From Amycolatopsis methanolica 239 (GTDB lineage: Bacteria; Actinomycetota; Actinomycetes; Mycobacteriales; Pseudonocardiaceae), in assembly GCF_000739085.1 (NCBI RefSeq), contig NZ_CP009110.1:62001-126000 (forward strand): a stretch of DNA of 64,000 bases, in the 5' to 3' direction. The number at the start of each line of letters is the position of its first letter. Position 1 is the first letter of the stretch. Below the pieces are notes generated by a model. That model did no database searches and was not told the DNA's origin. It saw only the letters and a list, made by a program, of their open reading frames with translations. A program made the translations under genes and the position numbers. Below, piece by piece: positions 51,556 through 63,223 of this stretch.

Positions 51556-53361
51556 TCACCCGTTGGGGGTGACCGGCTCACCTGCGAGGATGCGCGTCAG
51601 CGACCAGACGCGGTGCGGGTCGAGGTCCACCGGGCGGGGCGCCGGATCGGGCCGCAACCGGCTCAGCAGGACCTGCTGGACCAGCGCGGTCGGCACGCCG
51701 CGGGTGGCCAGCCGCCGCCAGAACACGTGGTCCTCCAGGCCGTCGACCAGCGGGTCCTCGGTCCAGCCGCCGAACGACTCGACCAGTTCGCGGCACACCA
51801 GGTACCCGCTGCCCAGGTAGGGCAGCTCCGCCAGCCGCCGCTCCTCCGGGGGCAGCGCGGCGACCAGTCCTTCGACCGGGTCGGCCACCGGGCAGTGCAC
51901 CACGTCGACGTCAGCGGACGCCTCGACCAGCCGTTCCAGAAGTCGGCGCGAGGCCCGCAGCCCGCCGTCGAGCACCAGTAGCCACGGCGCGGCCGAGCGC
52001 TCCAGCAGCCGGTTGCGCGTGTACCCGCGGCCCAGCGGCAGCTCGTGCCGCAGCACGTCGGCGGGCCGGGGGCGGGGCCGCGGCGCGACACCGTCTTCGC
52101 CGACGAGGATCCGCCGCGGCAGCACTGTGCCGGCGAGCAGGTCGCGCACCAGCGGGTCCGGATCCGGCTCGCCGGGGCGGCGGACCAGCAGCACGTCCAC
52201 CTCCGCCCGGTCGGCGTCCGGGAACACGGTCGGCGCCGCCGAGGGCAGCCACTCCACGCCGGACGTGCGGCGCGCGTCCACCGTCTGCTGGCCCATGCGG
52301 GTGGCCAGCGGCGGGTTCTCGGCCGGCGCGCCGAGCGACCGGGTGCCGGCGAACCGCACGTCCCAGGAGGGGGTGTCGATCGCCAGCGGCCGCGGCGCGT
52401 CGACCGCGGCGGTCTCGGCGAGCGGCGGGCTCGCGGGCATCCCGGGCGAGGCGGTCAGCACCTGTTCGGCCAGCTCGACCAGGGTCTTCGCGGACGCCAG
52501 CGGCTCCAGCGCGGTGCGCACGAACTCGTACCCCGCCATCCGCAGGTCGCGCTCCCGCTGCGGATCCGCGGCCAGCGCGGTGGCCGCCGCACCCAGCGAC
52601 TCCGGCCGCGTCACGACCAGGTGCGTGCCGGACACCAGCGGCGCCAGGTCCGTGGACGGCTCGGTCAGCACCACGCAGCCGTTGCACAGCGCCTCCAGCA
52701 CCCGCACCCACTCCAACGCCCGGGACCGCTCGCGGTGCAGGTTGAGCAGGAACCGCGAGTTCGCCAGGTGCCGGAACTTCGCCTCGCCGGGCAGGAAGTC
52801 GACCCGCTGCGGGCCCATCGGCTCGTGCGGCGGGGTGAGCAGCCGGACCCGCAGGTCGGCGAGGTCGTCGGCGTAGGACGCGAGCAGCTTCGACCGGCGC
52901 CGCTCCGCGGTGCCGAGGTAGGTCACGTCGATCTCGCGGGCGCTGTACGGGTCGCCGCCCCACGCGTCCCACAGCGGCGAGTACCCCAGCTGGAAGTGCT
53001 CGACGGGGATGCCGCGGCGGCGCAGTTCGGCGGTCGAGTCGTGGTTGATGTCCACCGCGCCGGCCAGCCCCGGCAGCAGGGCCGCGCTGCGCTCGAAGGT
53101 CGCCGTGCCCGGGTGTTCGACGCAGAAGGCGATGGTGCGGCGGCGCTGCTCCTCGGTCGGCTGATCGGCCTCCGGGGTCACCACGAAGTACTCGTGCGGC
53201 ACCACGACGTAGACCGTGTCGGCGTCCGCGTCCGGGTAGCGGCCGGTCGCCGTGGTCGCGCGGAACCCGGCCCGCCGCACCGAATCGGCGACCACCTCCA
53301 TCAGCTCCGCCATGAACCCGGAGCCGCCGGTCGCGGACACGAAGCAGAGCTGCGCGGTCAT
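51556..53361 (-). CDS. two-domain glycosyltransferase (GT-B/CgeB-like plus GT-A-like)
   Basis: The 601-aa protein has an N-terminal half like CgeB/GT4 enzymes: VYVVVPHEYFVV, VDINHDSTAELRRRGIPVEH, IDVTYLGTAERRRSKLL, RFLLNLHRERSRALEWVRVLEAL with a CNGCVVLTE loop. After a Pro/Ala-rich linker near 315-375, a GT-A-like half follows (VDVLLVRRPGE, GRGYTRNRLLERSAAPWLLVLDG, YLGSGYLVCRELVESFGGW, EDHVFWRRL). The DxD of GT-A appears as LDGG, so activity of this half is uncertain. ATG 53361 overlaps the coiled-coil gene stop. It is last in the glycan operon. Confidence 0.82.
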   Translation of the reverse strand: MTAQLCFVSATGGSGFMAELMEVVADSVRRAGFRATTATGRYPDADADTVYVVVPHEYFVVTPEADQPTEEQRRRTIAFCVEHPGTATFERSAALLPGLAGAVDINHDSTAELRRRGIPVEHFQLGYSPLWDAWGGDPYSAREIDVTYLGTAERRRSKLLASYADDLADLRVRLLTPPHEPMGPQRVDFLPGEAKFRHLANSRFLLNLHRERSRALEWVRVLEALCNGCVVLTEPSTDLAPLVSGTHLVVTRPESLGAAATALAADPQRERDLRMAGYEFVRTALEPLASAKTLVELAEQVLTASPGMPASPPLAETAAVDAPRPLAIDTPSWDVRFAGTRSLGAPAENPPLATRMGQQTVDARRTSGVEWLPSAAPTVFPDADRAEVDVLLVRRPGEPDPDPLVRDLLAGTVLPRRILVGEDGVAPRPRPRPADVLRHELPLGRGYTRNRLLERSAAPWLLVLDGGLRASRRLLERLVEASADVDVVHCPVADPVEGLVAALPPEERRLAELPYLGSGYLVCRELVESFGGWTEDPLVDGLEDHVFWRRLATRGVPTALVQQVLLSRLRPDPAPRPVDLDPHRVWSLTRILAGEPVTPNG

Positions 53362-53858
53362 GAAGTCCGCCGCCGCACGGCCCGCAGCGGCGCGGTGACC
53401 CGCCAGCTCACCGTCGCCCGCGTCGCGTCCAGTTCCCGGGCCAGCTCGGCGGCCCGCTGCTCGGCGGCGAGCGTGCCGCTCTCGGTGAGCGGCGCCTCGG
53501 CCTGCGCCGCGCCGGACAGCTGCAGCTCGGCGTCCAGCAGCCGGAGCCGCAGCCGGTCGCGCTCGCCGCGGGTCTCGGCCAGCTCGGCGCGCAGCGAATC
53601 GCGTTCGGCGCGGGCCACCAGCACGTCCCGCGCCAGCGCGTCGGCCTGCTCGGCGCGTTCGGCGACGCCGGCCAGTTTCTCGACCTGCTTCACCAGCTGG
53701 TCGCGGTGCTTGGTCAGCTCGTGGATCTGCAGTTCGGACTCGCGCAGCTCGGTGCGCAGCCGCTCGCGCTCCTCGGTGAACGCGACCCGCTCGGCCCGCA
53801 ACCGGGTCAGCTCGGCGCGCACCGCACCGGGAAGTTCATCGGGCAGCTCGTCGGTCAT
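53358..53858 (-). CDS. coiled-coil protein linked to glycosyltransferases
   Basis: The 166-aa protein is almost all heptad-repeat helix (TRLRAERVAFTEERERLRTE, HRDQLVKQVEKLAGV, AERDSLRAELAETRGERD). It ends with ATVSWRVTAPLRAVRRR, a SWR(V/L)TAPLR tail that recurs at the C-termini of glycan-biosynthesis proteins with coiled coils. It may act as a scaffold or chain-length ruler for the adjacent glycosyltransferases. It overlaps both neighbours by four bases (ATGA). Confidence 0.75.
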   Translation of the reverse strand: MTDELPDELPGAVRAELTRLRAERVAFTEERERLRTELRESELQIHELTKHRDQLVKQVEKLAGVAERAEQADALARDVLVARAERDSLRAELAETRGERDRLRLRLLDAELQLSGAAQAEAPLTESGTLAAEQRAAELARELDATRATVSWRVTAPLRAVRRRTS

Positions 53859-55738
53859 CCCCGCTCCTTCACCAGCTCGGTGAGCACGTCGGCGTACTCG
53901 GCGGCGTAGCCCGCCGGGTCCAGCCAGCCGTGCAGCTTCTCGTAGGCGTTCGCGGCGATCGCGCGCCGCCGGGCCGCCGGGGTGTCCAGGGCACGAAGTA
54001 GCGCGACGGTGAGCGCGTCCGCGTCGTTGGGCTCGAACAGCCAGCCGCTGCGCCCGTCGGCGATCATCTCCCGCGCGCCGAACACGTCGCTGGCGACCAC
54101 CGGCAGACCGCAGCACACGGCCTCCAGGATCGAGCGCGGCAGCGACTCCACGTCGGAGCTGTTCACGAACAGGTCCGCCGCCTCGAACCACGGCGCCGGG
54201 TCGCGCTGGATCGGCACCAGGTCGACCCAGTCCCGCAGGCCGGTCCGCTCGGTGAACTCGGCGAGCGCCAGCCCGTACGGCGACGGGTGGTGGCCGACGA
54301 TGCTCAACCGGATCCCGGGGTGCGCCCGCCGGACCCGGTCCATGGCGCTGATCAGCAGGCCCTGTCCCTTGCGCGGTTCCAGCACGCCGACGTTGAGCAG
54401 CAGCGTGGTGTCCTCGGGGATGCCGAGTTTCCGCCGCGCCGCGCGACGGTCGCGTTCGGACACCTGACCGCCGTAGGTGACCATCGGCGTGCCGTAGCGG
54501 ATCGTGCGGCAGCGCGCCGGGGTCGAGAACGGCAGGAACATCTCGCGCGTGGCGTCGGCGACGAACAGCAGCCGGTCCGCCTCGCGCAGCGTGCTCACCC
54601 AGCGCTCGCGCACCGGCGGCAGCAGGCCCGCCGGCCCCCAGTTCTGGTACGAGAAATCGTTCAGGTCGAAGCTCTCGTGCAGCACCCACGCGGTCGGCAG
54701 CCCCGCCCGGATCGCCGCGTCCGCGCCGGGGAACGCGCCGAGCGTGTTGACCAGCGCGACCGAGGCGTCGGTGCCGCGCGCGAACTGGGCGAGCTCGGCG
54801 ATGTGCCCTTCGTAGGAGGCGACGTCGTGCACGCGGTACGGCGAGGTGAGGTGCACGTCGATGCCGTGCGCTTCGCAGTCCGCGCGCAGTTCGCCGTCGA
54901 GCTGGGTGACGACCGTGATGCGCCAGCCGTGCCGCGTCGCGAGCCGGTCCAGCAGCTCCTGCAACCACAACTGCCCGCCGCCGACCGCGAGGCTGTGCGT
55001 GAACACCAGAACGTGCCGCGGATCCGCGCCGCTACGCGGCCGCGCCAGCGCCTTCCGCGTGCGGTCGGCGAGCTGCGCGGCCAGCGCGACGTCGGTGTCC
55101 TCGGCCGCCGGGTTGGACAGCACCACCTCGCGCGCGTCGGAGGTCCACTCGCCGGACAGCTCGCCGCGGACGCGGATCCGCACCGACAACGCGCGGTCCT
55201 CGCCCGCCGGCAGGTCGATGGGCACCCGCGCCTCGAACCCGCTGACGCCGGCGTCCGGGAAGTCCGGCAGGTGGTCGGCCACGTCCGGCCGCGGCAGGCG
55301 GGTGCGGGCGCGGACCGGCTCACCGCCGTCGACCAGGACCTCGACCAGCGACGGCGCACGCGAGTCGAGCAGCACCCAGCCACGCACGAACACGACGTCG
55401 CCCTGCGGGTTGTCGCCGTGCTTCGGGGTGTCGATCTCGTACAGCCGCAGCGGTTCCTCGTCGCCGAAGCGGCCGACCTCCACCACGGCGCCGGTCAGCG
55501 CGTCGCCGTTCGCGGCGCGGACCACGACCTCGTGCCTGCCGGTCGGCACCGGGTCCGGCGTGCGGATCAGCAGACCGGTCGTGCCCGGCGGTTCGGTCCC
55601 GGTGTCGTGGCGCCGCACCTCCGCCTCGGACCCTCCGATGTGGACGGTCACGGTCTCGCCCGCGGTGACCCAGCCGCGCAGCTCGAACAGGTGCCCCACC
55701 GGCCGTCCCGGCCGCACCAACCCGGCCGCTGTGTTCAT
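53855..55738 (-). CDS. GT4-family glycosyltransferase with N-terminal beta-sandwich region
   Basis: The 627-aa protein has an N-terminal roughly 215-residue beta-rich part with two repeated modules (VGHLFELRGWV and VVFVRGWVLLDS; TGRHEVVVRA and RALSVRIRV). The GT4 GT-B enzyme follows: VLVFTHSLAVGGGQLWLQELL, TAWVLHESFDL, LLNVGVLEPRKGQGLLI, and SSDVESLPRSILEAVCCGLPVVASD with the retaining EX7E motif near 550. It transfers a sugar from a nucleotide donor in the cytoplasm. The start ATG 55738 overlaps the methyltransferase stop by four bases. Confidence 0.87.
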   Translation of the reverse strand: MNTAAGLVRPGRPVGHLFELRGWVTAGETVTVHIGGSEAEVRRHDTGTEPPGTTGLLIRTPDPVPTGRHEVVVRAANGDALTGAVVEVGRFGDEEPLRLYEIDTPKHGDNPQGDVVFVRGWVLLDSRAPSLVEVLVDGGEPVRARTRLPRPDVADHLPDFPDAGVSGFEARVPIDLPAGEDRALSVRIRVRGELSGEWTSDAREVVLSNPAAEDTDVALAAQLADRTRKALARPRSGADPRHVLVFTHSLAVGGGQLWLQELLDRLATRHGWRITVVTQLDGELRADCEAHGIDVHLTSPYRVHDVASYEGHIAELAQFARGTDASVALVNTLGAFPGADAAIRAGLPTAWVLHESFDLNDFSYQNWGPAGLLPPVRERWVSTLREADRLLFVADATREMFLPFSTPARCRTIRYGTPMVTYGGQVSERDRRAARRKLGIPEDTTLLLNVGVLEPRKGQGLLISAMDRVRRAHPGIRLSIVGHHPSPYGLALAEFTERTGLRDWVDLVPIQRDPAPWFEAADLFVNSSDVESLPRSILEAVCCGLPVVASDVFGAREMIADGRSGWLFEPNDADALTVALLRALDTPAARRRAIAANAYEKLHGWLDPAGYAAEYADVLTELVKERG

Positions 55739-57798
55739 CGTCCCGCCTTCAACGTCTCTTCGGCGTCCTTGACCAGGATCAGCACGTCCTGGTGGCCGTC
55801 CCAGCCCGCCTCGACGTACCCGGCGAGGCGCAGCCGCGGGGTGAGGACGTGCCCGGTCACCCACTCCGGGGTGCTCAGCGAGATGCCGTACCCGGGCTGG
55901 CCGGGGTAGTCGGCGTAGCCGAACCCGTGGTCACGGTAGTCCGCCAGCACCCGGGCGTGGTCCGCGGCCGTCAGGCCGTACTCGCCGCCGTTGGCCATCC
56001 GCCACGCGACGCGGCGGCCGTGCGTGGTGACCACCGCGACCCCGCCCGGCGCGAGCGCGCGCTCGAAGTAGCCGAGCAGCGCGTCCCACGCCGCGATGTC
56101 CAAGTGGGTCAGCACCGAGCCGGACCAGATCAGGTCGATGTCGCTGACCTGCGGGATCTCCTCGATGCGCACCGACGCGGGCAGCCCGGTCGCGCCGAAG
56201 AACCGCACGCAGTGCTCGACGCCGTCCAGTTCGATGTCGGAGGCGACGAGTTCGGCGTCCGGGAAGGCGGCCCGGAACGTGCGCAGCACCCGGCCATAGC
56301 CGCAGCCGAAGTCGAGCACCCGCCGCGGCGCGGGCCGACCGGCGGCCTGCAGCCCGTGCAGGCACGCCCGCAGCGCCTGCCCGGCCACCGCGAAGTAGTG
56401 CTCGGTGTTGCCGCGGAACATCGAGTCGCCGGACGCGATGATCCGGTCCATCCGGGTCAGGGTGCGGGCGACCTGCGCGTCCAGTTCGGTGGTGGCCGGG
56501 GTGTGCCGCGTGATCTCCTCGGCGAGACGGCGGCGCCAGGCCAGGCGCATCGCATCCCGCTCGTGGTCCAGACCGGGGCCGGAAGTGACGCCGCAGCGCC
56601 GGATCGCCTGGAACTCCGCCTCCCGCTCGGCGGCCGCGTCGACGAACGCCGTCGGCCGGTCGAGCAGGACACCGAGCCAGGCGGCCAGGTCCCGCACCGT
56701 CGTGCCGGGCGCGGCGCCGGCCCAGCCGGCACGGGCGAGTTCGTCGGCGAGCAGCAGCAGGCCCCGGTCGATCACCTCGTCGGCGGTCGTCCCGGCGCGC
56801 TCCCACTCCAGGTCGATCGCCTGTGGCGGGTCGACGGCCAGCACGTTCGACGGGATCAGGTCCCACGACGGGTTGGTACGCACCAGATCCGCCCACGCGG
56901 TCAGCAGCTCCGCGGCCCGCCACGGCTGCTCGTTCAGCACCTCGGGCAGCGTCGGGGCGTCGACCACGACGTCCGTCCACTCGCGCACCGCGACCGGCCC
57001 CGGTTGCTGCGGCAGCAGGGGAGTGCGGCGGATTTCGTCGCCGACCACGTCCGCCCGGGTGCACCAGCGGGCCGCGCGGTCGGTGTTGAAGTAGGTGGCG
57101 AGTACGTCGTCCGGCCAGAGCCGGGCGGCGGGTTCGCCTGCCGACGCGAGGAACAGCAGGCCGTCCACGGTGTCCAGGCCGAGACCGCCCTCGACCATCT
57201 CCGCCCAGCGCTCGTCACGTCCGGACAGCTCCACCGCGAGCCGCGGGTGCCGGTCGAGCAGTTCGGCGGTGATGACGGCGCGGGTGATCCGGTGACCGGG
57301 GAGGCAGCCGAGGACCTTGTGGACGGTCAGCCCGGCCTCGGCCAGCCGACGCTCCCAGTGGCGGCGCGACTGCCCGCCCGGCCGGCCCACACCGAGCCGG
57401 TTCGGCACGGCGAGGCACAGCACCCCGCCGGGCTTCAGCCGGTCCGCGTGCTCGACGTCGGACGCGACGACCAGGTCGTACCGCTCGCCGGGAACCTCGT
57501 CCAGGACGCGCACCCCGGGCAGATCGGCGGTGCGGGCCCGGACGGCTTCCGCGTGGTCCGCCTCGACGGCGTCGACCCGCGCCACCTGCTCGCCGAGGTA
57601 CCGCGTCACCGCGCCGTGCCCCGCGCCCACTTCGAGCACGTGCGCGTCCGGCGGCAACCGGAGCGCCCGCAACGCGTTGGCCCGGCCGTGGTCGAGCTGG
57701 TCCCGCTCGCCCGGCGACAGCGCCGCGAAGTGCAGCTCGTCGGACAGCGCGGAGTGGTCGGCGGCGTTGCGGATGATCTCGGCGACCAGGTCGCTCAC
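55735..57798 (-). CDS. two-domain SAM methyltransferase of the glycan operon
   Basis: The 687-aa protein has two methyltransferase-like domains. The first, with VLEVGAGHGAVTRYLGEQV near 53-71, looks reduced after motif II. The middle (about 290-440) has ideal helices without a named fold (AIDLEWERAG, REAEFQAIRRCGVTS). The second domain has VLDFGCGYGRVLRTFRAAFP near 505-524, DIDLIWSGSVLTHLD and ALAPGGVAVVTTHGRR, typical of active enzymes. It could methylate a glycan end to cap chain growth. GTG 57798 is two bases after the upstream stop. Confidence 0.85.
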   Translation of the reverse strand: MSDLVAEIIRNAADHSALSDELHFAALSPGERDQLDHGRANALRALRLPPDAHVLEVGAGHGAVTRYLGEQVARVDAVEADHAEAVRARTADLPGVRVLDEVPGERYDLVVASDVEHADRLKPGGVLCLAVPNRLGVGRPGGQSRRHWERRLAEAGLTVHKVLGCLPGHRITRAVITAELLDRHPRLAVELSGRDERWAEMVEGGLGLDTVDGLLFLASAGEPAARLWPDDVLATYFNTDRAARWCTRADVVGDEIRRTPLLPQQPGPVAVREWTDVVVDAPTLPEVLNEQPWRAAELLTAWADLVRTNPSWDLIPSNVLAVDPPQAIDLEWERAGTTADEVIDRGLLLLADELARAGWAGAAPGTTVRDLAAWLGVLLDRPTAFVDAAAEREAEFQAIRRCGVTSGPGLDHERDAMRLAWRRRLAEEITRHTPATTELDAQVARTLTRMDRIIASGDSMFRGNTEHYFAVAGQALRACLHGLQAAGRPAPRRVLDFGCGYGRVLRTFRAAFPDAELVASDIELDGVEHCVRFFGATGLPASVRIEEIPQVSDIDLIWSGSVLTHLDIAAWDALLGYFERALAPGGVAVVTTHGRRVAWRMANGGEYGLTAADHARVLADYRDHGFGYADYPGQPGYGISLSTPEWVTGHVLTPRLRLAGYVEAGWDGHQDVLILVKDAEETLKAGR

Positions 57799-57800
57799 GA

Positions 57801-59018
57801 TCAGCCCACCGGATAGGGCAGCAACATCGAGCGGACGGTCCGCTGGTAGGCGCCCGACAGCGCGGCCTCGTCGGCCAGGTCGCCCTGCGTCACGTTGACG
57901 CGGATCAGGTTCTCGCCCGACACCCAGGTGGCGCGGTAGACGATCGGTGAGGCGACGAGCTTGTGGAACACCACCTGCGGCGGGATGTTCGGCAGCTGGT
58001 CGCTGATCAGCACCAGGCCGTTGCGCACGTAGTACTGGCGCAGCTGGCCGGCGAGCGCGGTCGCGGTGGCGGAGCTGTCCAGCGGGATGACCGTCACCGA
58101 GATCTTCTCGTTGCCGGGGCCGGTGGCGTCCGGCTGGCGCTGCGAACCGCGCCAGGCGACCTCCTGCACCGAGCGGCTGCTCAGCAGCGTGGCCTCGCCC
58201 TCGTCCATGATCCCCAGGTCGACCAGCCTGCTGACCGGCAACAGACCGCTCTGGCCGTCCGCGGTGCCCTCGGTCGGCGGGATCTTGTCCAGCAGCGCCT
58301 GGTTGGGCGAGTTGCTGGCGGCGCTCGAGGTGGGCGGCGGCTGCGTGGTCGTGGTGGCGGCCTGGTTGTCGTCACCGCCGGACGTGGTGAGGAAGATCGT
58401 CAGGCCCGCGGCGACCAGCACCACGACGACCGCGACGGAGATCCAGACGGCCTTGCCCTTGCCCTTGGCGGGCTTGTCGTCGAAGGCCTCCGGACCCTGC
58501 GCGACCGGGCTGATCGGCGGGAAGTCGGAGCCGCCCCACGGCGGGCTCGCGTCGGACTCCGGCGCGTTCCACGGCTGCTGCACCGGCTGCGGACCGGACT
58601 GGGGGAACCCGGCGGGCGGGGAGGCCGGGAAGCCCGCGGGAGGTGACTGCGGTGCGGGCGGGTTGGCCACGTACTGGGTGCGCTCCGGGTCCACCGGCGG
58701 CCTGGCCTGCCAGTTCGGCGAGACGGCCTGCGTCGGCTCCGCGGAGAAGTTCTGCGGCTGTGGCTGCTGCTGGGGCGGCTGCGGCGTGCCCTGCGGCGGG
58801 CTGATCGGCGCGATCACCTGCGTCGAGTCCGCGGAGTTGTCCTGCTGCTGGGGCGCCGGCTGTTGCTGGGGCGCGGGCTGCTGCGGCTGGGACGCGCTGT
58901 CGCTGTAGGACACCGCGGACGAGAGCACCTGGTCCCGGCGGACGCGGTAGTCGTCCGCGGAGAGACGTCCCGAGGCAAGCTCTTCGTCCAGCTTGCGCAA
59001 CTCCTCCTGCCAGGACAC
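57801..59018 (-). CDS. membrane-anchored Q/P-rich protein, first gene of the glycan operon
   Basis: The 405-aa protein starts MSWQEELRKLDEELASGRLS then ADDYRVRRDQVLS, a SHOCT-like short helical pair. A long Q/P/A-rich linker (about 38-170) follows, then one transmembrane helix (VWISVAVVVVLVAAGLTIFL near 190-210) and an extracytoplasmic domain to the end. GTG 59018 has AGGGGGC upstream. It shares N-terminus, layout and C-terminal fold hints with the protein at 60806-62605, so they are paralogues. Coupling to the methyltransferase (two-base gap) suggests a link to surface glycan assembly. Confidence 0.8.
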   Translation of the reverse strand: MSWQEELRKLDEELASGRLSADDYRVRRDQVLSSAVSYSDSASQPQQPAPQQQPAPQQQDNSADSTQVIAPISPPQGTPQPPQQQPQPQNFSAEPTQAVSPNWQARPPVDPERTQYVANPPAPQSPPAGFPASPPAGFPQSGPQPVQQPWNAPESDASPPWGGSDFPPISPVAQGPEAFDDKPAKGKGKAVWISVAVVVVLVAAGLTIFLTTSGGDDNQAATTTTQPPPTSSAASNSPNQALLDKIPPTEGTADGQSGLLPVSRLVDLGIMDEGEATLLSSRSVQEVAWRGSQRQPDATGPGNEKISVTVIPLDSSATATALAGQLRQYYVRNGLVLISDQLPNIPPQVVFHKLVASPIVYRATWVSGENLIRVNVTQGDLADEAALSGAYQRTVRSMLLPYPVG

Positions 59019-59174
59019 CCGGTAGCCCCCTAATCTGCTCTGGACGAGGCGGAACGCGTCCGCCGGATAGCGCTACGGTGACGACGCACATTGTGCACGC
59101 CTACCCTGCTCATCGCCGGTGAGGGTCATTTCGTGACCTTGTTCTGGTTAGGGTGTGAGGGAGGAGGGGGCGAG

Positions 59175-60809
59175 ATGGCGGCACGCTGGCCCGCCGTGGC
59201 CGCGGTCGCCGGGGGAACCGCACTCATCGGCCTGCACGGCTGGTCCTACGGCAACTGGATCAACGACGACGCGGCGATCACCTTCGCGTACGCGCGCGAC
59301 CTGGTCGACGGCGCGGGGCCGGTGCTCCAGCCGGGTGCGGAACCCGTCGAGGGGTTCTCGAACCCGGCCTGGCTCGTCCTGCTGGTGCTGGGGAAGGTGC
59401 TGCGCCTGTTCGATACCGGCGCGATCTTCGGTGTGCCCGACTATGTCCTGTTCCCGAAGATGCTCGGATTGCTGTGCTGCGCCGGTGTTCTCGCCGCGTG
59501 CCACTTCGCGGTGAGTCGCGTCACGCGGTGGGCATGGCTGGTGACGTTGTTCGCGGGCGGGTTGCTGGCCGCGATCCCGTCGTACGTGATCTGGTCGCTG
59601 TCCGGTTTGGAGAACCCGCTGTACGCGCTGGCGGTGGCGTGGCTGGCGGCGCTGTTGTTCCGCGCGGTGGTGGACGGGCGGGTGGCGGCCGTGCGGGTCG
59701 GGCTGGCCGCCGGTCTGCTGGCTGTGCTGGCGGCGCTGACCAGGCCGGACGGTGCGATCTTCGTGCTGGCCTACCCGGTGGTGGCGCTGGTGTTCGCGCG
59801 GCGGTGGCGGGCGCTGCTTCCGGCGGGGGTGTCGGTGCTGGCGTTCGCGGTGCCGTACGGCGCGTACCTGTTGTGGCGGCACGCGGAGTTCGGCCGGTGG
59901 GTGCCGAACACGGCGGTGGCGAAGAACCAGCAGCCGCCGTCGTGGTCGAACGCCGGGCGGGTGGTGGAGCCGGTGGAGTACCTCGGCTGGCCGGTGGTGC
60001 TGGCCGGGCTGGTGACCGTGGGGTTGGCGTTCTGGCTGGTCCCGGCGTTGCGGCGGCCGTTGGTGGCGTGGCTGGTGCCGCTGGTGCTCGCGTTGGCGGC
60101 GTACTGCGTGCTCAACCCGGAGCCGGGCGGCGAGTTCCGGTTCGCGACTCCGTTGTGGACGATGGCGGCGCTGGTCGCGGCGCTGGCGGCGGTCGAGGTG
60201 ATGCGGGCGTTGTCGGTGCGGTGGCGGGCGGCGCTGGCGGTCGTGCTGGTGGCCGCGGCGGTGCCGAGCGCGCCCGCGCTGGCCGACTCGGGCCGCGGGT
60301 TCGCGAGTGGTCCGGTGGTGCCGTTGTGCCAGATCGCGGAGCGGTACGGGCGGTTGTTCAACGGGTACGCGGACACGATCGGCCTGCGGGAGGGGTCGGC
60401 GCTGTTGCCGGACGTCGGCGGGACGGCGCTGACCAGCCGGTTGCGGGTGGTGGACTCGGTCGGGCTGGCGGACGCGCGCATCGCGGACCTGGTGTCCACG
60501 GGGGACTTCCCGGGGTTGCGGGACTACGTGTTCGACGAGGTCAAGCCGACGTTCATCCACACGCACGTGCCGTGGACCGACCTGACGGGGCTGACGTCGG
60601 ACGGGCGGCTGGCGGTCGAGTACGCGGCCGTGGTGCTCGACCGGACGGGCAAGAACGGCGACTGGGTGCGGCTGGACGCGCTCGACGGCGACGACCTGGT
60701 GAACCTGCGGGCGTACGCGCGGGTGACCGTGCCGCGCGTGGAGGCCTCGCGCGCGGCGGCGGTGACCGGGCGGTGCGGTGACGTGCTGCGGCCCGGGCAG
60801 GTGCCCTAG
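59175..60809 (+). CDS. GT-C membrane glycosyltransferase (AftB-like arabinofuranosyltransferase family)
   Basis: The 544-aa protein has about nine to ten membrane helices. The first external loop carries WINDDAAITFAYARDLVDG near 28-46 with the acidic pair expected for GT-C catalysis, followed by LQPGAEPVEGFSNPAWLVLL, as in AftB-like and related mannosyltransferases. The C-terminal roughly 160 residues are extracytoplasmic. Such enzymes use polyprenyl-phosphate sugars. ATG 59175 has GGAGG upstream. It shares a CTAG stop with the convergent Q-rich protein gene. The sugar is not determined. Confidence 0.8.
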   Translation: MAARWPAVAAVAGGTALIGLHGWSYGNWINDDAAITFAYARDLVDGAGPVLQPGAEPVEGFSNPAWLVLLVLGKVLRLFDTGAIFGVPDYVLFPKMLGLLCCAGVLAACHFAVSRVTRWAWLVTLFAGGLLAAIPSYVIWSLSGLENPLYALAVAWLAALLFRAVVDGRVAAVRVGLAAGLLAVLAALTRPDGAIFVLAYPVVALVFARRWRALLPAGVSVLAFAVPYGAYLLWRHAEFGRWVPNTAVAKNQQPPSWSNAGRVVEPVEYLGWPVVLAGLVTVGLAFWLVPALRRPLVAWLVPLVLALAAYCVLNPEPGGEFRFATPLWTMAALVAALAAVEVMRALSVRWRAALAVVLVAAAVPSAPALADSGRGFASGPVVPLCQIAERYGRLFNGYADTIGLREGSALLPDVGGTALTSRLRVVDSVGLADARIADLVSTGDFPGLRDYVFDEVKPTFIHTHVPWTDLTGLTSDGRLAVEYAAVVLDRTGKNGDWVRLDALDGDDLVNLRAYARVTVPRVEASRAAAVTGRCGDVLRPGQVP

Positions 60810-62605
60810 TTCGGCGGGAGTGCCGTGGCCAGGGAGGTCTTGGTCTGGGCGAGGCGTTCGGTCAGCGAGTTCGGGTCGCCGTCGAGGCCCTGGGACACCC
60901 AGATCGCGACGGCGTAGCTGCCCGAGGTGTACCACGTGCCGCTCATCTGGCCTGCCGAGTTGCTGCCGGTGACGGCCTTCGCGTCGGTCGATCCGGACGG
61001 GACGGTTTGCAGGCCGGCGGTGAGGGAGTGCTCGTAGAGGCGGCGGGTGATCGAGGCCGCGGCGGCGGGTGAGCTGGCGGGGACGACCAGGACGAGGTAG
61101 CCCTGCGGGCCCTGGGACGAGCCGCGGAAGATGACCTGGCCGGCGCCGTTGTCCTTGAAGAGCTGGCCTTCCTCGCGGGAGTACAGCTTGAGGTCGATGC
61201 CCTGCTCGACGGTCAGGGTGCCGTTGTTGGTGCTCGGGGTGCCCGGCAGGGTCGGCAACCGCGCCTCGACGGCCTCCGGCGAGCTGACGGCGGAGGTGGT
61301 CGGCCCGGCGGTCGTGGTGGTGGCGTTGTTGCCGCGCAGGAACCACACGCCGGCCGCGACCATCGCGAACACGACGACGACGCCGAGGGTGATGAACAAC
61401 CAGGTGGGCTTGCGCTTCGGCGGCGCCTGCAACACGGGCGCGGCGTCGAAGGGAAGCTGCTGGCCGGGCCCGTGCAGGGGCGGCGGCGGGGTCATGCTGG
61501 GCAACGGCCGGGCAGGCGGAGGAACCGGATTGGTGACGACCGTCGGAGCGTCCTCGATGGAGGGGAAGCGCATCGAATCGGTGGCCCGCTCGTCGGCCGG
61601 GCTGGGGGCGCTCGTGGGCTTCTTGGTGGCGAGCAGCTGCGCGGAGATGCTCTGCGTGGGCCCTTCCTCAGTGGCGAGCGCACTGCCCACCTCGGGAGCC
61701 TGCTCACCCTGCTGCTGGCTCTGGCCAGCCTGGGGCTGGGCAGCCAGGGGCTGCCCAGCCTGCGGGTGACTCTGCGCTTGGCCACCCTGCTGCTGGCCGG
61801 CCGGTGGCTGCCCGGCCTGAGGCTGGCTCTGCGGCTGACCGCCCAGTTGCCCACCGTGCTGCTGGCTCTGCGGCTGGCTGCCCTGTGGTGTGCCGCTTTC
61901 CGGCTGGCTGCCCTGCTGCTGGCCAGCCTGTGGCTGGTCGCTGTGTGGCTGCCCCTGGCCGGCCTGCGGCTGCCCGGCTTCGGGCTGCGGCTGGGCCCCT
62001 GGCTCAGCCTGGCCACCCTGAACCTGCCCGACCTGCCCCGCCTCGACCTGACCCCGACCAGCCTGCGGCTGCCCCGCCGGAGTCTGCCCCGTCGCGCCGG
62101 TCTGAACCTGCCCGTACACGTCCTGCGGCTGCCCGAACTGCGGCTGCCCCACCTGGGGCTGAACCCCCGCCTGCGGCTGGCTCTGCGGCTGCCCAACCGG
62201 CGGCTGCCCCGGCACGCCCGGCCCCTGCGGCACCCCGCCCACCGGCTGATGCGCGTACTCGCCCGGCGGAACCTGCCCCTGCGGCCACCCCTGCGGCGCG
62301 AAACCCTGCGGCACCGCGCCCCCCGGCACCGCGCCCTGCGGCGCCCCCTCCTGCGGCCACCCTTGGGGCGCCTGCGCCCACGGCGCCTCCCCCGGCTGCG
62401 GAGCGAATCCCGGACCGGCCGGATTCGCACTCTGCCACTGAGGCGCCCCGTCAACCCGCCCCCGCGGCGAAGCCACCGACGCCGGCGCCACATTGCCCGA
62501 CGCGGCGGCGAGCAGCTCGTCCCGCATCTTGCGGTGCTGGTGCTGGGTGATGGTTCCGTTGGCGAGCTCGGCGTCCAAACGGCGCAGCTCGTCCTGCCAA
62601 CTCAT
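60806..62605 (-). CDS. membrane-anchored Q/G/P-rich repeat protein, paralogue of the glycan-operon anchor protein
   Basis: The 599-aa protein opens MSWQDELRRLDAELANGTIT (helical pair), then about 290 residues of low complexity built from QPQAGQPQ-, QGQ- and PQG-type units (about 50-330). A linker with Thr and Pro, one transmembrane helix (TWLFITLGVVVVFAMVAAGV near 410-430) and an extracytoplasmic domain (FKDNGAGQVIFRGSSQGPQG, TWYTSGSYAVAIWVSQGLDG) follow. ATG 62605 has GAGGAGCC upstream. The long glutamine repeat may vary in length between strains. It is convergent with the GT-C gene and shares its CTAG stop. Confidence 0.8.
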   Translation of the reverse strand: MSWQDELRRLDAELANGTITQHQHRKMRDELLAAASGNVAPASVASPRGRVDGAPQWQSANPAGPGFAPQPGEAPWAQAPQGWPQEGAPQGAVPGGAVPQGFAPQGWPQGQVPPGEYAHQPVGGVPQGPGVPGQPPVGQPQSQPQAGVQPQVGQPQFGQPQDVYGQVQTGATGQTPAGQPQAGRGQVEAGQVGQVQGGQAEPGAQPQPEAGQPQAGQGQPHSDQPQAGQQQGSQPESGTPQGSQPQSQQHGGQLGGQPQSQPQAGQPPAGQQQGGQAQSHPQAGQPLAAQPQAGQSQQQGEQAPEVGSALATEEGPTQSISAQLLATKKPTSAPSPADERATDSMRFPSIEDAPTVVTNPVPPPARPLPSMTPPPPLHGPGQQLPFDAAPVLQAPPKRKPTWLFITLGVVVVFAMVAAGVWFLRGNNATTTTAGPTTSAVSSPEAVEARLPTLPGTPSTNNGTLTVEQGIDLKLYSREEGQLFKDNGAGQVIFRGSSQGPQGYLVLVVPASSPAAAASITRRLYEHSLTAGLQTVPSGSTDAKAVTGSNSAGQMSGTWYTSGSYAVAIWVSQGLDGDPNSLTERLAQTKTSLATALPPN

Positions 62606-62701: not shown

Positions 62702-63223
62702 CTACCCCGCTGGCAGCAGCGGCTCCACCTTCTCGGCGAAGGCCTGCGCGTTCGGACAGCCCTGAGCGTCTTCACTGGCCCGCGCCATGGTCGCCAACAC
62801 CAGGGCGAGGGCGTGTTCTCCGACCCCCACCGCGACAGCACAGCCGCCGGTGGGAATGTCGGCCTGCAGGGCGTCGCGACCGTTGATCGAGATCTCCCGT
62901 GCCCCCGTGTTGTCCGCGGCGAATCCGCTCAGCCCTTGCGTGGAATCGAGCGCCAGGCTGTAGGTGATGAATTCCGGTTTCGACGCTGTGCACTGGTTGC
63001 GCGCGCTCTTGTTCTCGCCGGGGTTGAATCCCTGACCCGCGTTGAGCTGGTCCAGCAGCTGGCACGCGTTGAGCCCGGCGAACACATCCGAATTCCCCGG
63101 GCTCGAGCTGGGAGCCGGACCGGGCGCGGGCAACGCGCTGCCGGAGACAGTGCTGGTGCAGGCGGTTCCGGCCGCCAATGTGCAAGCGACGGCCACGATG
63201 GCCCGGGCAGATCGACGGTTCAC
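62702..63223 (-). CDS. DUF3558-like lipoprotein
   Basis: The 173-aa protein has a lipoprotein signal peptide with lipobox LAAGTAC (Cys 22), a Ser/Pro-rich linker (ALPAPGPAPSSSPG), then a domain with ACQLLDQLNAGQGF, NQCTASKP and GGCAVAVGVGEHALALVLA. Three cysteines after the lipobox are conserved in DUF3558 proteins, which are exported in mycolic-acid actinobacteria. GTG 63223 overlaps the preceding gene by four bases. Function unknown; similar lipoproteins often follow ESX-type helical proteins. Confidence 0.82.
   Translation of the reverse strand: MNRRSARAIVAVACTLAAGTACTSTVSGSALPAPGPAPSSSPGNSDVFAGLNACQLLDQLNAGQGFNPGENKSARNQCTASKPEFITYSLALDSTQGLSGFAADNTGAREISINGRDALQADIPTGGCAVAVGVGEHALALVLATMARASEDAQGCPNAQAFAEKVEPLLPAG

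Follow-up and report, generated by a model that had tools for sequence, protein, structure and literature searches.

We analysed a 64,000-nucleotide stretch of the genome of Amycolatopsis methanolica 239 (contig NZ_CP009110.1, positions 62,001 to 126,000; hereafter the window, in whose numbering coordinates are given unless stated otherwise). It encodes two paralogous membrane proteins on its minus strand, A (P0001, 405 residues, GTG start, 57801–59018) and B (P0002, 599 residues, ATG start, 60806–62605). From its N-terminus, A consists of a two-helix module, a linker with phosphorylation-site-like motifs, one transmembrane (TM) helix and an outer domain resembling that of the kinase PknH. The linker carries three threonine-glutamine (TQ) sites that are conserved among A proteins, and on balance we lean towards the view, drawn from sequence comparison, that this tail is a kinase substrate and a docking platform for FHA proteins. 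The identity of the kinase, of the FHA protein and of the glycan concerned is proposed with less confidence than this core claim.

TQ sites in the linker of protein A

Two sets of loci were compared. The first consists of 41 loci, approximately one per genus, hand-picked from the matches listed among 139 matching genomes; for the second, 80 loci were retained out of 130 relatives that had been found. The sets overlap in species (e.g. loci L036 and L109 are 100% identical).

An alignment of the A proteins revealed short conserved blocks in the linker, the chief one being [DE]-x-T-Q-x-[VI]. The window copy has this motif as DSTQVI (residues 64–69, 58812–58829), EPTQAV (residues 94–99, 58722–58739) and ERTQYV (residues 112–117, 58668–58685), all on the minus strand. 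In 69 linkers 138 TQx[VI] motifs were counted, compared with a mean of 4.5 (maximum 9) after shuffling, and SQx[VI] was absent against 6.4 expected. The 79 A copies of the second set hold 234 TQx[VI] motifs versus 5.9 in shuffled linkers, with exactly three in 57/79; here the copy richer in TQ was taken as A, a choice that favours the contrast between A and B, and the short open reading frame (ORF) of locus L163 was dropped, as were one A and one B removed by TM and length filters. When A was defined by its N-terminal 36 residues alone, at least one TQx[VI] was found in 124 of 130 A copies, exactly three being present in 80, and in 33 of 77 B copies, mostly as a single one; this count retains one truncated copy with a linker of 6 residues. 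The B linker of the window has one TQ-like site, GPTQSI, at T317.

The threonine of the motif is invariant, since all 344 matches to [DE]-x-X-Q-x-[VI] have Thr at X and none has Ser. Sites with the acidic residue at −2 number 123 in 11,295 linker residues versus 4 in 174,586 residues of 425 neighbouring genes. Across many genera about three such sites persist in A, although the sequence between them does not.

A second motif of the A linker, QGP[ED]xF, lies near the membrane and was found in 36/46 and 68/84 A copies, compared with 1/23 and 0/54 B copies. In the window it belongs to a conserved juxtamembrane element, PPWGGSDFPP...QGPEAF (approximately residues 159–179, 58482–58544, minus strand). 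The element as a whole, PPWGG...QGPExF, is nearly absent from B and is a possible docking site.

Repeated threonine sites with Val or Ile at +3 and an acidic flank, in a predicted cytoplasmic disordered tail, are the features expected of an FHA-docking substrate of a serine/threonine protein kinase (STPK), and all of them are present in A. FHA domains are described as specific for phosphothreonine (pThr) and selective at pT+3, Val included, in excerpts of PMC3953482 and PMC5549992. According to an excerpt of PMC7164672, the sites that depend on PknA in Mycobacterium tuberculosis show an enrichment of acidic residues on their N-terminal side and of Leu or Val at +3.

TQ sites in PknB and elsewhere in the genome

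In the PknB encoded by the same genome, the juxtamembrane segment that joins the kinase domain to the TM helix contains DERTQVI. This acidic-R-T-Q-V-I site has the form of the A sites, although PknB is a kinase, unlike A, and A has about three sites, for which phosphorylation is predicted. The juxtamembrane domain of M. tuberculosis PknB recruits FhaA, as stated in excerpts of PMC6180346 and PMC12077195, both of which cite a structure paper from 2011. In 27 relatives an acidic-(R/H)-T site occurs at the same place of PknB, mostly as ERT with T, S, A, E or Q as the next residue. The A. methanolica genome contains 16 kinase matches and three FHA matches, two of the latter in an fhaA-fhaB-like region at 54–55 kb, not far from the pknB gene at 48 kb.

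A genome-wide DNA pattern for the TQ site gave 74 matches in the 7.24-Mb genome versus 16 for the reversed control. Its only close clusters were found in A (three), in a protein with four TM helices (4-TM protein; three) and in the tail of an S13 D-Ala-D-Ala carboxypeptidase (two). The 4-TM protein (genome positions approximately 6,073,706–6,074,600; locus L268, 2844–4421, minus strand) has no Pfam match, and its disordered N-terminal tail holds TQVV clusters. Two to four TQ sites are kept in 17 of the 18 homologues found in the family, the search for which gave 18/18 loci without low-complexity masking and 6/18 with it. The carboxypeptidase (approximately 6,738,294–6,738,350; locus L269, 2076–4010, minus strand) carries its two TQ sites in an N-terminal tail.

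Paralogy and domain architecture of A and B

The first-pass annotation of this region had described two paralogous proteins with MSWQ(E/D)ELR(K/R)LD starts, a low-complexity linker, one helix and an exterior domain. That observation is confirmed, and its interpretation is partly supported, as set out below. The starts read VSWQEELRKLD in A, from the GTG codon, and MSWQDELRRLD in B, with 17/35 residues identical (49%, E 2e-9), and the outer domains have 41 of 168 aligned residues identical (24%, E 3e-5). Furthermore, when profiles of 60 A-type and 43 B-type outer domains, each with the TM helix, were compared, they matched with a probability of 99.9% (E 4.9e-34). Being related at both ends and matching in their outer-domain profiles, A and B resemble each other beyond chance; they are paralogues.

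By sequence and hydropathy each protein has a single hydrophobic helix, preceded by a Q/P-rich linker of 152 residues in A and 363 residues in B. The same layout is found in 69 members at the 41 loci: a two-helix module of about 37 residues starting with W-Q, a linker of 50–367 residues in which P, Q, G or A abound, a single hydrophobic helix and, beyond it, an outer part of 165–210 residues. In the window, the module of A spans residues 1–37 (58908–59018), its TM helix residues 191–209 (58392–58448) and its extracytoplasmic part residues 210–405 (57804–58391). In B the module likewise spans residues 1–37 (62495–62605), followed by the Q/P/G/A-rich linker (61403–62491), the TM helix (residues 402–420, 61346–61402) and the extracytoplasmic domain (60809–61345), all on the minus strand. 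The residues before the helix are more positive than those after it in 54/69 and 118/138 members of the two sets, a charge bias that favours a topology with the N-terminus inside and the C-terminus outside.

The N-terminal 37 residues are the most conserved part of A and B alike. Hidden Markov model (HMM) matches at E<=0.1 among 40 N-termini were to GvpG in 40, DUF1707 in 29 and SHOCT in 19, and the window copies fall below the curated cut-offs of all three families. SHOCT (PF09851) gave no match at E<=10 with the whole A and B proteins of the window; the best whole-protein score in a relative was 20.5 bits, compared with a gathering score of 27. By the curated cut-off A and B therefore fall outside SHOCT; they differ from these modules in having a near-invariant W-Q start and in carrying the module at the very N-terminus (40/40 aligned copies), against the predominantly C-terminal placement of SHOCT. 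An annotation of A and B as FliL-type was rejected, as the NCBIfam scores were 17.6 and 12.5 bits versus a cut-off of 179 and the resemblance is confined to the TM region. No kinase domain was found in A or B with Pfam at E<=10, and they are accordingly not members of the PknH kinases.

The linkers of the two paralogues differ in how they vary. Within the genus of the window the B linkers measure 112, 176, 267, 293, 358, 363 and 367 residues, compared with 132–152 residues and little variation in A. It had been suggested that the QPQAGQPQ-type repeats of B may vary in number; the repeats are real and the length variation is strong, but the repeats are imperfect, with periods of 15 bp and 57 bp among others and 63–81% matches. 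As far as the data go, the long repeats of B appear to be a species-variable spacer.

Predicted fold of the outer domains

A sequence search of solved structures with P0001 gave no match, and the outer parts were modelled with AlphaFold2 (pLDDT 82.5 and pTM 0.73 for A; 83.5 and 0.73 for B). The two models agree in the order of their helices and strands. For both, the top match among solved structures was the extracellular domain of M. tuberculosis PknH (4esq), with Z 12.1 and a root mean square deviation (rmsd) of 3.5 Å over 148 residues for A, and Z 12.8 and 3.0 Å over 148 residues for B; Foldseek gave E 1.5e-4 for the A model against PknH. The folded part of A corresponds to model residues 56–223 (residues 238–405 of the protein). 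Next best was TiME (Z 11.2 for A, 11.6 for B), with LpqN at Z 7.9, and unrelated structures started at Z 8.8 (A) and 9.5 (B). DUF7373 was matched in 15/60 A outer domains at E<=0.1, and no match to Pfam PknH was listed for the same 60 domains.

The models thus predict that A and B share the fold of the PknH extracellular domain, and not different folds. PknH resembles A and B in its single TM helix and outer domain, and differs in bearing a kinase and in being only about 10–12% identical in this domain. The actinobacterial envelope domains TiME, LpqN, MTC28 and DUF7373 also resemble the outer domains of A and B, at an identity of approximately 8–12%. To our knowledge, none of these proteins carries a cytoplasmic TQ tail.

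Distribution of the family

A search with the first 47 residues gave matches at E<=1 in 139/150 genomes of the GTDB family, representing 44/46 genera; in four of these genomes the match was weaker than E 1e-3, and two or more matches per genome were common. A 40-row N-terminal profile searched against 249 genomes of the order gave strong matches in 40/42 members of the same family among the matches listed. The 66 other matching genomes of the order reached only E 6e-8 to 0.01, which is the level expected of generic SHOCT-like modules, and among 197 genomes of the class a match at E<=1e-6 was found only in A. methanolica itself. Named genomes with the family include Amycolatopsis, Prauserella, Saccharomonospora, Saccharothrix, Lentzea, Actinophytocola, Kibdelosporangium, Kutzneria, Saccharopolyspora and others, all of which we take to be Pseudonocardiaceae, and the closest relatives with a name belong to Amycolatopsis, A being 97% identical to that of A. 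tucumanensis. Judged by these matches, the family is essentially confined to one GTDB family, Pseudonocardiaceae. One record titled Rhodococcus rhodnii NRRL B-16535 contig35.1 (L183) has five blocks that are 91.6–94.9% identical to Kibdelosporangium aridum (L185), and is probably mislabelled or contaminated. No publication on the family was found in a limited, non-exhaustive set of queries of the open-access literature.

Gene neighbourhood

The A gene ends 2 bp before a methyltransferase-domain gene on the same strand (55735–57798), which is followed by glycosyltransferase ORFs, and A thus heads this row of genes, in agreement with the earlier view that one of the two proteins heads a glycan operon. 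The ORFs are one with a GT4-type glycosyltransferase domain (53855–55864, minus strand), whose start is unsettled and which overlaps the upstream gene, and one with a glycosyltransferase-like domain (51556–53361, minus strand). The former also overlaps an ORF at 53358–54968 on the same strand; as one frame encodes the GT4 domain and the other a coiled-coil-like C-terminus, the gene limits at 53358–55864 are unsettled.

The association is not limited to the window. The first gene downstream of A falls, in 31/41 loci, into one of five clusters whose examples have glycosyltransferase and/or methyltransferase domains. In 18/41 loci it shares the strand of A at a distance of −11 to +18 bp, often with an 8-bp overlap. 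Among 39 downstream genes, Glyco_trans_1_4 was matched in 21 and several methyltransferase models in 16 (E<=1e-3); the A. methanolica genome as a whole has 20 Glyco_trans_1_4 matches above the cut-off. Neighbour genes were picked by a homology-guided, mechanical procedure, and some start codons are wrong. Acyltransferase and AlgX-like genes recur as further neighbours of A, and the neighbouring enzymes vary between genera. A family member lies directly upstream of A in 12/41 loci, so that the two paralogues frequently stand side by side without an intervening gene.

In the window A and B are separated by P0003, a GT-C-like integral membrane protein (59091–60809, plus strand; start probably ATG 59175 by comparison with homologues), which shares the CTAG at 60806–60809 with the B gene, containing the stop codons of both as described before. 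The arrangement of the pair around this gene stands for the genus of the window, where all loci with P0003 beside A were found (6/41), and fails as a general rule; the GT-C protein as an obligate partner of A and B was ruled out on this ground. Homologues of P0003 occur in 19/60 genomes of the family, at places other than the A/B locus, and among 20 such loci the A/B N-terminal motif was found only at that of the window (the flanks are short, approximately 1.5 kb). P0003 between A and B is a genus-level insertion among the loci examined. The label AftB-like, given to P0003 by the first-pass annotation, found no support: Pfam gave no match at E<=10, the best NCBIfam match was weak (13.1 bits versus a cut-off of 200), and neither the sequence alone nor a 13-sequence profile had a relative in the PDB at E<=10, the presence of an AftB structure in that PDB copy being unchecked.

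On its other side B adjoins a DUF3558 gene (62702–63223, minus strand; 38.3 bits versus a cut-off of 34.1), and B of the related locus L038 has several members of this gene cluster beside it. Elsewhere in the genome, at approximately 1,297,980 (locus L252, 358–1539, minus strand), a protein resembling the acyltransferases found beside A in other genera has AERTQQI in its N-terminal part. This gene is close to a GT4 gene at 1,298,124, which suggests that a second glycan/acyl locus exists here.

Proposed role of A and alternative explanations

A is best read as a single-pass membrane sensor or adaptor without a kinase, its N-terminus inside and its C-terminus outside. In the proposed mechanism a PknB-type Ser/Thr kinase would phosphorylate the TQ threonines of the disordered cytoplasmic tail, and the tail with several pThr would recruit FHA proteins (FhaA, FhaB or GarA-like), as the phosphorylated PknB juxtamembrane segment of mycobacteria does FhaA. 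Docking on A would bring regulators of wall growth beside the envelope-glycan enzymes encoded next to it, while the outer domain may report the state of the wall or of a ligand. B is a divergent paralogue that shares both ends with A and has few TQ sites; it is probably a partner, competitor or spacer form of A. The best analogy for A is a PknH relative that has no kinase and that docks FHA proteins in the manner of the PknB juxtamembrane segment; A and B are in that sense a variant within the already known STPK/FHA-linked envelope signalling. GlpR of Corynebacterium glutamicum, as described in an excerpt of PMC10522489, is likewise a membrane protein whose cytoplasmic disordered regions link division and wall-growth machinery; the likeness is one of description, and GlpR has three TM helices compared with one in A and B.

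Several observations weigh against this role. A strict TQx[VI] is found in the PknB juxtamembrane segment of only 2/27 relatives (ERTQVL and ERTQVM also occur), so the support that PknB lends to a phospho-site reading is partial. As the site of the relatives is mostly ERT plus a residue other than Q, the identity with the A sites is exact in some genera only. A conserved TQ cluster in the S13 carboxypeptidase was ruled out, 6/30 homologues having one, and so were TQ sites as a general feature of glycan enzymes, as the neighbours of A have them only sporadically (0/9 in cluster C13, 2/12 in C9, 2/22 in C1, 2/17 in C5, 4/18 in C4, 0/7 in C15, 1/7 in C16 and 0/5 in C27). No FHA gene was found at the A/B locus. 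The resemblance of the predicted folds shows no function, and SHOCT as an oligomerisation domain is unsupported in the excerpt of the paper that named it (PMC3581485). Finally, 11/150 genomes of the family have no N-terminal match and four more have one only at E>1e-3; some such genomes keep PASTA-domain proteins, so that A and B are not essential to the pathway.

Other explanations of the linker have to be considered. TQxV and QGPExF could be constitutive docking motifs for a partner that does not read phosphorylation, for instance a scaffold for polar growth or the glycan enzymes encoded nearby, which would make A a plain scaffold, in line with the first-pass annotation. This would account for the several conserved short motifs, including QGP[ED]xF, in A copies and not in B, and for the translational closeness of A to glycosyltransferase and methyltransferase genes. 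We nevertheless find it unlikely, as the absolute preference for Thr, the acidic residue at −2 and V/I at +3 are what recognition by an FHA domain and a kinase would select, and a TQ site is present in PknB itself. It is more doubtful still that the linkers are mere low-complexity spacers, with A and B acting through their outer domains and the TQ repeats arising as by-products of slippage in Q/P-rich DNA: the B linkers, free in length within one genus and mostly without TQ sites, would suit such an origin, but the retention of about three sites in A over many genera, their excess over shuffled linkers and the poor retention of the intervening sequence would not.

A and B might also form a sensor pair that monitors the wall glycan and, by way of the N-terminal SHOCT-like module, feeds back on the glycosyltransferases encoded nearby, phosphorylation playing a minor modulating part. 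The strong conservation of the N-terminal module and the presence of the PknH-like outer domain in both proteins speak for such a pair; however, the neighbouring enzymes differ between genera, which makes one fixed enzyme contact unlikely, and we consider this reading improbable. The first-pass annotation had suggested that the Q/P linkers might organise glycan enzymes. The A gene is indeed linked to glycan genes in many genera; for the A linker the idea of organising Q/P repeats gives way to the conserved TQxV and QGPExF sites, a more specific proposal.

Beyond A itself, the FHA-docking reading could be extended to a more general TQ-cluster code of the Pseudonocardiaceae. In this code [DE]xTQx[VI] in the PknB juxtamembrane segment, in A as the receptor and in the 4-TM protein would be read by FHA proteins that assemble wall-growth regulators at sites of glycan synthesis, A being a PknH-like wall sensor without a kinase. 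We put this forward tentatively, as possible but rather less than probable. Such a code would be convergent with the docking of FHA domains on SQ/TQ clusters of eukaryotic checkpoint kinases, which it resembles by analogy.

The coupling of wall sensing to polymer synthesis by PknB-type kinases is partly known, mainly from mycobacteria and corynebacteria. For the antibiotic-producing actinomycetes, A offers a concrete candidate kinase substrate, together with a mutant of three residues. The TQ motif may moreover be useful for finding other clients of kinases and FHA proteins, and the search with it has already yielded the 4-TM protein with its clusters.

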